From Collinsella tanakaei (GTDB taxonomy: Bacteria; Actinomycetota; Coriobacteriia; Coriobacteriales; Coriobacteriaceae): a stretch of 64,000 nucleotides of DNA. Positions 19,428-23,021 of the stretch are shown in pieces. A program made the position numbers and the translations under genes. The DNA lies in contig NZ_JADYTL010000008.1 in the NCBI RefSeq assembly GCF_021531055.1, forward strand, positions 1 through 64,000, in the 5' to 3' direction. The notes beneath the pieces were generated by a model. That model saw only the letters and a list, made by a program, of their open reading frames with translations, did not search any database and was not told the DNA's origin. Each line of letters opens with the position of its first letter. Position 1 is the first letter of the stretch.

Positions 19428-20114
19428 CTAGCCGCGTCGCGCTGCTTGCTCATGCCGACGCGGGTCGTACCGCCAAATCGTGTAGCTTTGCGGATGCGCG
19501 TAGACGCGCACGGTGCGCCCGGACGGCAAGCGGTGATCTTGGATGCTCCCCTGCTTGAGCACCTGCCAGCCGCTCCGTCCCAGATAGGCGTAACGCTCGC
19601 CGTTATCCGACATGTGCACGACCGTGACCGCTTGGCGCGCTTGGCGCTCGAGCCGGTCCAAGAAGCGCACGAGCACCGCGGTATCGAAGGGATTGAACAG
19701 GTAGAAGTGCGTGTACGGCGCAAGCGACTCGTCCAGCACGCTGCCGCATCTGACCTCGAACCGCGGATACGCCGATGCCCATGAGGCGGCCTCGCGGGCA
19801 AGCTCCGGATCGAGCTCGAGGCCCGTCACGCGCGCCGGGCAGCCGACGTCCACGCAGTAGGCGAGCACGCGCCCGAGCGCGCACCCGACGTCGAGCAGGT
19901 GCGACTGGACATCGAGGCCCATTGCGGGCAACAGCTCCTCGAGCACGAAGTAGGGCGTCGCGGTGGGGTCGTGGGCGCCTGCCGAGGCGAGCGTCGTCGC
20001 CGCGTCGCATGCAAGCGACCTGCCGCAGATCGCCCGGTCGCGTTCCACGTCGGCGGCGAACAAGTCCATCTTGGCGCGGTCCCCCTCCATGGGCGCACGC
20101 AGATTTCCAGCCAT
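19428..20114 (-). CDS. Class I SAM-dependent methyltransferase
   Basis: A 228-residue Rossmann-fold methyltransferase. SAM motif I is HLLDVGCALGRVLAYC (about 73-88), followed by motif II VTGLELDPELAREA. The FYLFNPFD segment takes the place of the catalytic NPPY/DPPF motif. The substrate cannot be read off. The start at 20114 is preceded by GGAGGGAGGG, and a longer frame runs into the LexA-like palindrome. It lies 48 bases downstream of that palindrome on the opposite strand, so it could also be LexA-controlled. Its stop is 18 bases from the convergent ABC gene. Confidence 0.75.
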   Translation of the reverse strand: MAGNLRAPMEGDRAKMDLFAADVERDRAICGRSLACDAATTLASAGAHDPTATPYFVLEELLPAMGLDVQSHLLDVGCALGRVLAYCVDVGCPARVTGLELDPELAREAASWASAYPRFEVRCGSVLDESLAPYTHFYLFNPFDTAVLVRFLDRLERQARQAVTVVHMSDNGERYAYLGRSGWQVLKQGSIQDHRLPSGRTVRVYAHPQSYTIWRYDPRRHEQAARRG

Positions 20115-20162
20115 GACCCTCCCTCCACGTTCCGTCACCCATCGACGGAAAAGGCGCCCTAC

Positions 20163-20195
20163 ATATAGAACATATGTTCTATATTGTGCTATCAT
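20163..20195 (+). promoter_or_regulatory. LexA-like 22-bp palindrome and extended -10 promoter
   Basis: A perfect 22-bp palindrome (20163-20184) is centred on GAACATATGTTC, the classic Gram-positive SOS core. Six bases past the 14-base box (20167-20180) comes the extended -10 TGCTATCAT (20187-20195). This spacing is identical to that in front of terB at 11544. Transcription would start near 20202 and read the small peptide gene. The palindrome also stands 48 bases ahead of the divergent methyltransferase gene. Confidence 0.75.
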
Positions 20196-20251
20196 ACCTC
20201 CATCGAGCGGGCGGTGCCCTCCAAATCTCGCAGGGAGATGGGAGGGATCCC

Positions 20252-20335
20252 ATGCTCAGGAACCTCACCTGGCTGCTGCTTGCGGCAGCCGTGCTGCTGG
20301 CGCACATGACGATTCTGATGCTCATCGTCAGATAG
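20252..20335 (+). CDS. 27-residue hydrophobic peptide, SOS-type (TisB-like)
   Basis: A tiny gene encodes a 27-residue peptide: MLRNLTW, then an unbroken Leu/Ala/Val/Ile/Met stretch, then a final Arg. That is one membrane helix with basic ends. GGGAGGG lies five bases before the ATG. The leader contains CCCTCC (20217-20222), able to pair with and hide this ribosome site. A LexA-like palindrome and extended -10 lie upstream, and a 12-bp hairpin follows the stop. The complete unit resembles SOS-induced membrane toxins such as E. coli TisB (29 residues, LexA-controlled, structured leader). There is no sequence homology claim. Alternatives are a small SOS membrane regulator or cell-division inhibitor. 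No antisense antitoxin RNA could be identified. Confidence 0.7.
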   Translation: MLRNLTWLLLAAAVLLAHMTILMLIVR

Positions 20336-20362
20336 CCGTTTGTGGGTGAGCCCTGAAAACGG

Positions 20363-20392
20363 GAACAGCCGCCTGGTGCAAGGCGGCTGTTC
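20363..20392 (+). terminator. Terminator-like hairpin after the small peptide gene
   Basis: GAACAGCCGCCT pairs perfectly with AGGCGGCTGTTC around a six-base loop. The stem is 12 bp, but the following bases (TGTGCGGG) contain no T run. It may be a factor-dependent end or a stabilising 3' hairpin. Confidence 0.6.
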
Positions 20393-20495
20393 TGTGCGGG
20401 CTTAACCCACAAAACCCAACTTGCAGGGGCTTGAAACCTTCTGCTCGTACTGAGTATACCCTTTTCGCATCCCTGCGTGCGTGGGTATCACGAGG

Positions 20496-20559
20496 TGGGA
20501 AAATGGTGCCTGTCCCTATTTTCCCACCCGGGAAAATAGGGACAGGCACCATTTTCCCA
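20496..20559. repeat. Paired inverted 31-bp hairpins, TTTTCCC-arm family
   Basis: Copy one (20496-20526) has arms TGGGAAAAT and ATTTTCCCA around GGTGCCTGTCCCT. Copy two (20530-20559) is the same in inverse orientation, three bases away. Each copy is itself a hairpin, and together they form a large cruciform. They lie between the SOS-type peptide unit and the helicase gene. Confidence 0.85.
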
Positions 20560-20591
20560 TGTGAGAGGTGTAGGACGAAGGGAGGAACGAC

Positions 20592-23021
20592 GTGGGGGTT
20601 TTCGACCGATACGCACCGTTCGTGCAGGACTTCATCTACAGCCATGATTGGGAGAGCCTGCGGTCCATCCAGGTGGCCGCGGCCGACGCAATCTTCAACA
20701 CCGATGAGAACGTCCTGCTCACCGCGCAAACCGCGTCGGGCAAGACCGAAGCGGCGTTCTTCCCTATCCTCACCCTGTTCGACAAGGATCCGCCCGCAAG
20801 CGTCGGCGCGCTGTACATCGGTCCGCTGAAGGCGCTCATCAACGACCAGTTCTACCGCCTCAACGACCTGTGTGAGGAAGCCCACATCCCCGTGTGGCAC
20901 TGGCATGGGGACGTGGCGGCGTCGCACAAGCGCAAACTGCTCAAAGAACCCTCGGGTATCCTGCAGATCACGCCGGAATCGCTCGAGGCGTTGCTGCTCC
21001 ACAAGCACGCCGCCGTCGGACGGCTGTTCGGCGATCTGCGCTTCGTGGTCATCGACGAGGTGCATTCGCTGCTGCGCGGCGACCGCGGCGGGCAGACGCT
21101 CTGCCTGATCGAACGCCTGTCGCGCATGGCGGGCGTCAACCCGCGCCGCGTCGGCCTTTCCGCCACCATCGGCGACCCCGAGCGGACCGGCGCGTTCCTG
21201 TCGGCAGGCACCGGGCGCGGTTGCATCATCCCCCGCTTCGAGGAGCCGCGCCGCACCTGGCGGCTGTCGATGGAGCATTTCTACATCACCGGGCCGCAGG
21301 CGACCGAACGCGCCCGCCAGGATGCGTCACCGCTCGAAGCCGAGGTGGTGAGCTGTGAGCGACTCGGCGCCGGTGCGCCCTCGCTCGACGATCTGCTCGC
21401 CAACGCCCAGAACCCGAGCTCCGACGCCATGCTGGCAAAACGCGACGCAACCGCGCAAGGGGCGTCGGATGCGCAGGGAACCGCTGCCGGATCTCCCGAC
21501 GAGATCGGCATACCTCCCGTCACGGAGACGGAACTCATGGTGGCCACCGACACCGCCCCCGCCGATGCGGATCCCGGCCTCGGCTACATCTTCGAGCACA
21601 CGCGCGGCCGCAAGTGCCTCGTGTTCGTCAACTCGCGCGAGGAGGCCGAGGGCGTCTGCACCATCCTGCGCCAGTATTGCGAGGCGAACCACGAGCCCGA
21701 CCGCTTCCTCATCCACCACGGCAACCTCTCCGCCTCGTACCGCGAGACCGCCGAGGAGATCATGCGCGACGAGGAGCTCGCGCTCACGACCGTCACGACC
21801 GCCACCCTCGAGCTGGGCATCGACATCGGCCGCCTCGAGCGGGCGTTCCAGATCGACGCGCCGTTCACCGTCTCGTCGTTCTTGCAGCGCATGGGGCGCA
21901 CGGGCAGGCGCGACCTACCACCCGAGATGCACTTCGTCATGCGCGAGGAGCAGCCAGAACCGCGCTCGATGCTCCCCGAGACCATCCCGTGGAAACTGCT
22001 GCAGGGCATCGCGCTCGTGCAGCTCTACCGCGAGGACAAATGGGTCGAGCCCCCGCAGCTCGACCGCCTCCCCTACAGCCTGCTCTACCACCAGGTCATG
22101 GCGACGCTTGCGAGCTGCGGCGAGCTCACGCCGGCGGAACTTGCCGGCCGCGTGCTCACCCTGTCGTACTTCCACCGTGTGAGCCCCGACGACCTGCGCG
22201 TCCTGCTGCGCCACCTCATCGAGACCGACCATATCGAGCAGACCGAGGGCGGCGGTCTCATCGTCGGCATCGCCGGCGAACGCATCACCAACTCGTTCAA
22301 GTTCTATGCGGTGTTCCAGGAAAACGAGGAGTTCACGGTGCGTTCCGAATCCGCCGAACTCGGTACCATCGTGAACCCGCCGCCCGCCGGTGAGCGCATC
22401 GCCATCGCCGGCCACTGCTGGATCGTGGAGGAGGTGGACTGGAAGCGCCATCTGGTCTACTGCACGCAGGTCAAGGGGCGCGTGCCGGCCTACTTCGGCG
22501 ACTGCCCGGGAGACATCGACACCCATGTGCTCGAGCGCATGCGGCAAGCCCTCACCGAGAGCTGCGGCTACCCCTATCTCATGGCCAACGCGCGGGCCCG
22601 CCTGCGCCAAGCGCGTCACGTGGCGGCCAACGCCCACCTTACCGATCGCCCGCTCATCAACCTGGGCGGCGACACGTGGGCACTGCTGCCCTGGCTGGGA
22701 AGCTACGCGTTCTTGGCGCTCGAGCGCCTGCTCAAGATCAAGTGCGCAGGAGAGCTCGGACTGAAGGGCCTCGATCCCTCGCGCCCCTACTTCATGCAAT
22801 TCCGCATGAAGGCCGATGAATCGACGTTCTACCAAGTGGTCTGCGCCGAAGCGCAGGTCGACTTCGATCCGCTCGATTTGGTGTATCCCGGCGAGGTGCC
22901 CTACTTCGACAAATACGACGAGATGCTTCCCGCCGAGCTCGTGCGCAAGGGATTCGCCGAGGGCGTGCTGGATATCGAAGGCATGCGGGAGCGCGTGCGC
23001 GAATGGGAGGCGTTCATCTGA
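20592..23021 (+). CDS. Lhr-like DEAD/DEAH-box helicase
   Basis: An SF2 helicase of 809 residues. The Q-like SIQVAAADAIF precedes Walker A QTASGKTE (46-53), then LYIGPLKALINDQ (Ia), ITPESLEALL, DEVH (155-158), LSATIGD (III), and the C-terminal ELGIDIG and QRMGRTGRR motifs. A poorly conserved insertion lies at about 235-320. The C-terminal 350 residues are a domain of Lhr/BrxHI-like helicases. From family knowledge, this helicase type is commonly beside a TerB-N protein and a DUF2791 ATPase. Here those two are 6 kb upstream. Translation starts at GTG (20592) after GGGAGGAACG. It follows the SOS-type peptide unit in the same direction. Confidence 0.85.
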   Translation: MGVFDRYAPFVQDFIYSHDWESLRSIQVAAADAIFNTDENVLLTAQTASGKTEAAFFPILTLFDKDPPASVGALYIGPLKALINDQFYRLNDLCEEAHIPVWHWHGDVAASHKRKLLKEPSGILQITPESLEALLLHKHAAVGRLFGDLRFVVIDEVHSLLRGDRGGQTLCLIERLSRMAGVNPRRVGLSATIGDPERTGAFLSAGTGRGCIIPRFEEPRRTWRLSMEHFYITGPQATERARQDASPLEAEVVSCERLGAGAPSLDDLLANAQNPSSDAMLAKRDATAQGASDAQGTAAGSPDEIGIPPVTETELMVATDTAPADADPGLGYIFEHTRGRKCLVFVNSREEAEGVCTILRQYCEANHEPDRFLIHHGNLSASYRETAEEIMRDEELALTTVTTATLELGIDIGRLERAFQIDAPFTVSSFLQRMGRTGRRDLPPEMHFVMREEQPEPRSMLPETIPWKLLQGIALVQLYREDKWVEPPQLDRLPYSLLYHQVMATLASCGELTPAELAGRVLTLSYFHRVSPDDLRVLLRHLIETDHIEQTEGGGLIVGIAGERITNSFKFYAVFQENEEFTVRSESAELGTIVNPPPAGERIAIAGHCWIVEEVDWKRHLVYCTQVKGRVPAYFGDCPGDIDTHVLERMRQALTESCGYPYLMANARARLRQARHVAANAHLTDRPLINLGGDTWALLPWLGSYAFLALERLLKIKCAGELGLKGLDPSRPYFMQFRMKADESTFYQVVCAEAQVDFDPLDLVYPGEVPYFDKYDEMLPAELVRKGFAEGVLDIEGMRERVREWEAFI

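Follow-up and report, generated by a model that had tools for sequence, protein, structure and literature searches.

What is the role of a 27-codon open reading frame (ORF) that lies behind a perfect LexA-type palindrome and is followed by a hairpin? This question is raised by positions 20163 to ~20461 of the 64,000-nucleotide stretch of Collinsella tanakaei DNA analysed here (contig NZ_JADYTL010000008.1; hereafter the window, to which coordinates refer). A preliminary description of positions 20163-20392 had presented them as an SOS-type transcription unit for a TisB-like membrane peptide. The palindrome, the extended -10, the complementary CCCTCC and GGGAGGG motifs, the 27-codon ORF and the 12-bp hairpin are all located where it had placed them, and its right boundary at 20392 cuts the locus; the conserved unit reaches ~20461. 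We conclude that the locus most likely encodes, on the chromosome, a type I toxin-antitoxin pair controlled by the SOS response, in which the candidate antitoxin gene converges on the peptide gene from the minus strand. The features of the locus are the following:

20163-20184, no strand: LexA-type box, a perfect 22-bp palindrome (ATATAGAACATATGTTCTATAT) that matches itself on the opposite strand, assigned by comparison with the lexA boxes and the family copies.
20187-20195, plus strand: promoter element of the peptide gene, an extended -10 reading TGC TATCAT (TGCTATCAT), assigned from the sequence and the hexamer spacing across boxed copies.
20200-20251, plus strand: structured leader in which CCCTCC (20217-20222) is paired with GGGAGGG (20240-20246), based on the fold, 32 leaders and model R2.
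20252-20335, plus strand: 27-codon ORF (MLRNLTWLLLAAAVLLAHMTILMLIVR) for one hydrophobic helix, the candidate toxin, based on 35 family ORFs and a ratio of non-synonymous to synonymous differences (pN/pS) of ~0.41.
20349-20461, minus strand: antisense RNA unit (model R1), the candidate antitoxin gene including its -10, based on alignment, stems and the covariance model.
20363-20392, minus strand: 12-bp hairpin close to the 3' terminus of the antisense RNA, with CCCGTTTT next on this strand; in the family copies its stem is kept mostly by G.U pairs of this strand.
20396-20410, minus strand: second antisense hairpin (GTGGG / CCCGC), based on the sequence and pair counts across copies.
20453-20461, minus strand: antisense -10 element (GGGTATACT), TATACT in 36 of 51 copies, with the RNA start inferred at ~20447.

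The locus belongs to a multi-copy family that is found in Collinsella, in further genera of its taxonomic family and in one second family of the order. DNA of the window cassette matched, whole or in part, 13 of the 43 genomes of the genus, and the aligned copies have the box, promoter, leader (GGGCGGTGCCCTCCGAGTC..CAGGG..GGAGGGATCCC), an ORF of 25-29 codons, the hairpin and a block past the hairpin in common. C. stercoris and C. intestinalis each carry a copy. Two covariance models were made, R1 from the antisense unit alone and R2 from the leader. The R1 seed came from loci resembling the whole cassette, which biases seed-inclusive counts towards box and ORF, and the 26 places outside both the genus and the seed are therefore given separately below. 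R1 matched 18 of the 43 genus genomes. At the level of the order, weak matches included, it hit 29 of 197 genomes, which represent 10 of 89 genera, and at that of the phylum 9 of 296 sampled genomes, all nine within the order. Three genomes of the family f2 gave weak matches, at E 6.7e-4 to 0.008, which were taken as chance or remnants; likewise, the only one of 16 leader-pattern matches outside Collinsella, in Nocardioides, failed the filter for box and ribosome site and was taken as chance. From 103 R1 matches we used 58 places, after dropping repeat copies of one place, opposite-strand matches covering little more than the hairpin, and the short L099 and L100. An opposite-strand ORF of the expected kind was present at 35 of the 58; the ORF filter had been adjusted to how far from the antisense unit such a frame should lie.

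The peptide gene appears to have a LexA-type promoter, as described for TisB/IstR-1 and as the preliminary description had proposed. The 2.23-Mb genome contains lexA (TIGR00498, 238 bits, cut-off 110.95), and upstream of it are three boxes (GAACGGATGTTC, GAACAGTTGTTC and GAACATATGTTT), two of the form GAAC-N4-GTTC and the third one mismatch off. The core of the palindrome, GAACATATGTTC, occurs three times in the genome, against zero for a backward control. A box with at most one mismatch was located at -165 to -210 in 32 of the 35 ORF-bearing R1 places, compared to one of the 23 ORF-less places (L089, the frame of which looks broken by eye). Among the 26 places outside genus and seed, 12 of the 13 with an ORF had the box, L110 being the one without, compared to one of 13 lacking an ORF. 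At the background rate in the window of ~3.3e-4 per position (21 boxes in 64 kb), a box is expected by chance in ~1.5% of 45-base intervals; 454 kb of loci contained 299 such boxes, a figure that includes the family copies themselves. Conservation of box and frame in relatives, on which the preliminary description had staked its reading, was thus confirmed. The spacing between box and leader was 29-32 nucleotides (nt) in 20 of the 32 boxed copies and 38-42 nt in 10 (two were not measured; the L060 box used here was GAACAGATGTTC), two classes that differ by about one helical turn, and the best -10-like hexamer was found 10-11 or 20-21 nt past the box in 28 of the 32.

The alignment of the 35 family ORFs centres on M-x-K-L-T-x-L-L-L-x-A-A, after which a hydrophobic segment comes. 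The encoded peptides have 25-29 residues, one helix and a maximal 19-residue hydropathy of 2.45-3.54; the window peptide is a single hydrophobic helix with basic ends. In 27 closely related pairs, substitutions at codon positions 1, 2 and 3 numbered 94, 50 and 138, and the pN/pS was 0.41, a descriptive figure and not a test, as the pairs overlap. At the level of sequence this shows coding constraint on the 27-codon frame, in line with the peptide gene proposed before, and a small hydrophobic peptide gene, one of the features of type I systems, seems to be present. Folded on its own, the leader has both the ribosome site and the start codon in stems (z-score -2.36; 6 of 200 shuffles as good), and the 294-nt messenger RNA (mRNA) stretch folds with a z-score of -5.68. 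The masking of the ribosome site, also part of the preliminary description, is conserved across 32 aligned copies (L076, L110 and L115 were left out).

A role of the hairpin after the stop codon as a plain terminator of the peptide mRNA is not supported. In the window, the terminal stem has no T-run behind it when read on the plus strand; its minus-strand continuation is CCCGTTTT. Moreover, a conserved block of ~70 bases past the hairpin extends the unit to ~20461. On the minus strand, this block starts at GGGTATACT, upstream of which no position exceeds 0.68 bits. Among 51 distinct units that scored at least 43 bits and spanned at least 105 bases, 36 had TATACT as the antisense -10 hexamer, and the other 15 included TATATT (2), TATAAT, TATTAT and TACAAT (1 each), TATACC (2) and TACAGC (2). 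In the 23 seed copies (alignment A2), the 12 pairs of the terminal stem comprised 21 minus-strand G.U cells versus one plus-strand cell; two of the pairs had changed on both sides. A model-free count over distinct hairpins gave 17 versus zero in the cassette's orientation, and 17 versus two when both readings of a hairpin were included. The wider search, with 34 distinct arm pairs, gave 43 versus 10 and seven other mismatches (sign test 2.8e-6), a comparison in which the alignment was fitted to a minus-strand model and the copies are related. In the second stem, one pair was T-A in 22 copies, T.G in 13, C-G in one and G-A in one; these 37 of the 51 copies follow the simple pattern, and 14 do not. 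The consensus fold energy was -26.4 kcal/mol for the minus strand versus -11.9 for its reverse, and the window's minus-strand unit folded with a z-score of -3.97, which none of 200 shuffles equalled. The G.U-kept stem, the minus-strand fold and the missing plus-strand T-run indicate that the terminal hairpin belongs to a minus-strand RNA. We therefore read 20349-20461 as a convergent antisense RNA gene with a predicted transcript of ~90 nt, running from ~20447 to 20355. Rfam gave 16 matches up to E 5 in window positions 19900-20800, none at its gathering score; over the cassette these were just RcsR1 (20.7 bits, 60 needed) and a long non-coding RNA (14.8 bits, 40 needed), and the remaining 14 were microRNA models on a nearby inverted repeat.

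Which halves of the cassette survive points in the same direction. In the genus, R2 detected 17 leader halves in 12 of the 43 genomes, 16 of them beside a full antisense unit and one (in genome G029) beside a partial one. The order sample gave 29 leader halves: 27 had a full antisense unit, that of G029 a partial one and that of G092 none, and in G092 the hydrophobic frame is, by eye, destroyed too. Conversely, 10 of the 26 genus antisense units of at least 50 bits were without a leader half. Five copies retain mainly the 3' half: L015, L016, L019 and L022 have lost the ORF or its start, and L021 has kept the ORF and lost box and leader. An antisense unit often found without the leader half, with the reverse being rare, is the pattern that a toxin-antitoxin pair would leave.

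From these features we infer two transcripts, an mRNA starting near 20202 and the minus-strand RNA with the ends given above. LexA, bound to the palindrome, would block the promoter of a short mRNA encoding the one-helix membrane peptide, and the leader of this mRNA would conceal its own ribosome site. The ~90-nt minus-strand RNA, begun past the stop codon, would converge on the peptide gene and be complementary to the 3' part of the mRNA. It would clear away or silence mRNA that leaks through, and the simplest route would be formation of a duplex that RNase III degrades, as for TxpA/RatA. Upon DNA damage, cleavage of LexA would allow the mRNA to outnumber the antisense RNA, and the peptide would then enter the membrane and slow growth or division. 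The leading guess for the presumed toxicity is a TisB-like action by depolarisation; alternatively, the peptide may block division as SidA-type peptides do. A bolder version of this scheme, possible but doubtful in our view, is a one-way SOS switch. The peptide mRNA, for which the hairpin provides no T-rich terminator, would run through the antisense promoter, and transcription interference would turn the antitoxin off just when the toxin is switched on. In this version, Actinomycetota would also gain their first type I toxin-antitoxin family, and through the copy beside a LexA-associated helicase a single transcript would link repair to growth arrest.

Several observations weigh against a toxin-antitoxin locus of this design. 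R1 found no match in 25 of the 43 genus genomes, and, since the family copies are related, the counts over them are not independent. For the antisense RNA, no recognisable -35 hexamer was seen across the 51 copies, and the 15 hexamers that depart from TATACT include some poor ones, such as TACAGC. The window copy itself is without two bases at 20423-20430, in the near-invariant GCCCTCCTG of the antisense RNA; nearly all other seed copies keep this AGCCCTCCTG stretch. The G029 copy has an ORF without the promoter half of the antisense unit, two of the ten leaderless antisense units (L076 and L115) still keep an ORF, and three ORF copies (L076, L110 and L115) have no box. Finally, the 5' end of the antisense RNA paired with the leader no better than shuffles did (31 of 32 pairs, L070 with its partial antisense unit being left out; mean z-score -0.40, 2 of 31 below -2), and type-B antisense RNAs paired better with type-A leaders than type-A antisense RNAs did. 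Pairing between the antisense 5' end and the leader through direct repeats was dropped as a candidate, being not above shuffles and no better in cognate groups.

RNA I (fst) and RNA II of pAD1 and their chromosomal relatives are described as convergent RNAs with a shared terminator and an overlap outside the coding region (PMC4147584), a layout that the sequence of the Collinsella locus suggests for its hairpin past the coding region. The cited passages describe no LexA control for them. PF13955 (Fst_toxin) gave no useful match here, just a 15.5-bit one in a 785-residue frame elsewhere in the genome and none for the family peptides, with controls below the cut-off too, and the repeat-leader pairing is not supported. 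As the pairing was no better than in shuffles and no better in cognate groups, blocking of the ribosome site in the manner of Fst is not supported; because the antisense unit, in addition, does not overlap the coding region, we favour duplex decay of the kind described for TxpA/RatA (PMC4147584). In txpA/ratA and bsrG/SR4 of Bacillus, a convergent antisense RNA lies over the 3' end of a gene for a hydrophobic peptide (PMC8309996, PMC4147584), a layout predicted here as well; these peptides are longer (59 and 38 residues), the hosts are Firmicutes, and no SOS control is described in the text cited.

The same peptide could instead act as a checkpoint on division or the membrane, induced by SOS in the way of SidA, YneA or SosA, and be no addiction-type toxin, with the 3' block being a terminator region. 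SidA is an SOS-induced small membrane division inhibitor. Such inhibitors are also described in the cited accounts of YneA (PMC13396833) and SosA (PMC6851548), and a single hydrophobic helix with basic ends would suit a checkpoint peptide, a function that sequence cannot tell from toxicity. A checkpoint peptide needs no antisense unit, however, and the minus-strand G.U pattern, the -10 and the 10 of 26 leaderless antisense units point to a regulatory RNA, so that we consider a checkpoint function alone unlikely. Both may hold together, as a checkpoint peptide silenced by an antisense RNA.

A second alternative takes the analogy with E. coli further: the locus would resemble tisB/istR-1, with an antitoxin that is either trans-acting or encoded divergently upstream, and the 3' unit would be unrelated. 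TisB is described as a LexA-controlled membrane peptide of 29 residues (PMC8309996, PMC4147584), compared to 25-29 here, and its leader, as described, is also structured (PMC7708055). The LexA box, the peptide length and the structured leader resemble those of tisB. IstR-1, however, is described as divergent from tisB (PMC4147584), whereas the antisense unit in Collinsella, a member of a different phylum, is downstream and convergent, is common to the family and is also seen where the leader half is missing. When 32 stretches of up to 300 nt upstream of the box were compared, just 7 pairs matched each other, all close copies, which indicates that the shared cassette starts at about the box; no unit common to the family was found in these stretches, and a trans-acting RNA elsewhere was not searched for. 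We consider an upstream antitoxin very improbable. Nor did a kinship of the peptide with TisB find support: PF13939 (TisB) had no match in the genome at E<=1, a test of limited power since its control matches, in E. coli and two archaea, were all below the cut-off. Pfam gave no match for four family peptides at E<=10, NCBIfam none for the five tried, and PHROGs nothing convincing for five (best E 0.031, for the peptide of one relative). By these tests the peptide does not appear to be a member of the TisB or the Fst family. DinQ of E. coli is a LexA-controlled, single-helix peptide of 27 residues under antisense control by agrB (PMC8309996); the Collinsella locus resembles dinQ/agrB in peptide size, single helix and its putative LexA and antisense control, and differs in that agrB is described as trans-acting and in that the Collinsella peptides have no Pfam match.

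That the cassette is a non-coding mobile or repeated element, akin to repetitive extragenic palindromes or miniature inverted-repeat transposable elements, with ORF and LexA box arising by chance, would fit the several copies per genome, some close together (contig C10 of G052, contig C2 of G016), and the broken copies, but is highly unlikely given the pN/pS of the ORF, its retention across two families and that of the box with it, and the lack of any match in plasmids, phages or, for the leader pattern, viral contigs (the flanking genes were not searched for transposases).

The divergent copy L110 (G120:C3:141200-142000), with an ORF (MDKLIVLLLTAALLVVSIVVFIVIR) and an antisense unit and without a LexA box, has, by eye, a promoter-like stretch TTGACG...TAGAAT where the box would stand, and is perhaps a LexA-independent variant. 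LexA-type boxes (GAACATATGTTC and GAACATGTGTTC) are located upstream of two HigB-like toxin genes, at L001 (G000:C9:109299) and L052 (G000:C13:74647). The two genes match PF05015 (59.4 and 81.3 bits against a cut-off of 27), and behind each lies a helix-turn-helix antitoxin gene (TIGR02607 HigA for L052). The SOS response may therefore control several toxin modules here. At L051 (G000:C11:74502), a GAACACATGTTC box precedes a small gene, a 137-residue frame with no Pfam match at E 0.01.

The peptide ORF is flanked by a methyltransferase-like gene on the minus strand, the longest listed frame of which (19428-20195) overlaps the LexA-type box, and by a DEXH helicase gene on the plus strand (20592-23021). 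The best NCBIfam match of the helicase is TIGR04121, a DNA-damage-response helicase model (184 bits, cut-off 850). In two relatives, L029 and L033, a GAACATATGTTC box stands directly before the helicase homologue (its start being homologous by eye) with no cassette in between; in the window, the cassette's box is the only one seen before the helicase. Between cassette and helicase lies an inverted repeat, GGGAAAATGGTGCCTGTCCCTATTTTCCCA and its complement (20496-20559), which is matched by Rfam microRNA models below their gathering scores and, by eye, is not seen in L006 and present as one half only in L005.

Type I systems were stated to be found only in Proteobacteria, Firmicutes and Tenericutes before the first cyanobacterial case (PMC12390103, 2025), and none of the titles listed in our literature searches reports one in Actinobacteria. 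If confirmed, the Collinsella family would extend this class to a phylum with important gut members, and would join a TisB-like SOS control to a Gram-positive antisense layout. With the two covariance models, R1 and R2, the family can be detected also in genomes whose annotation misses a frame of this size, and it becomes testable whether Collinsella responds to DNA damage by entering dormancy or by arresting division.
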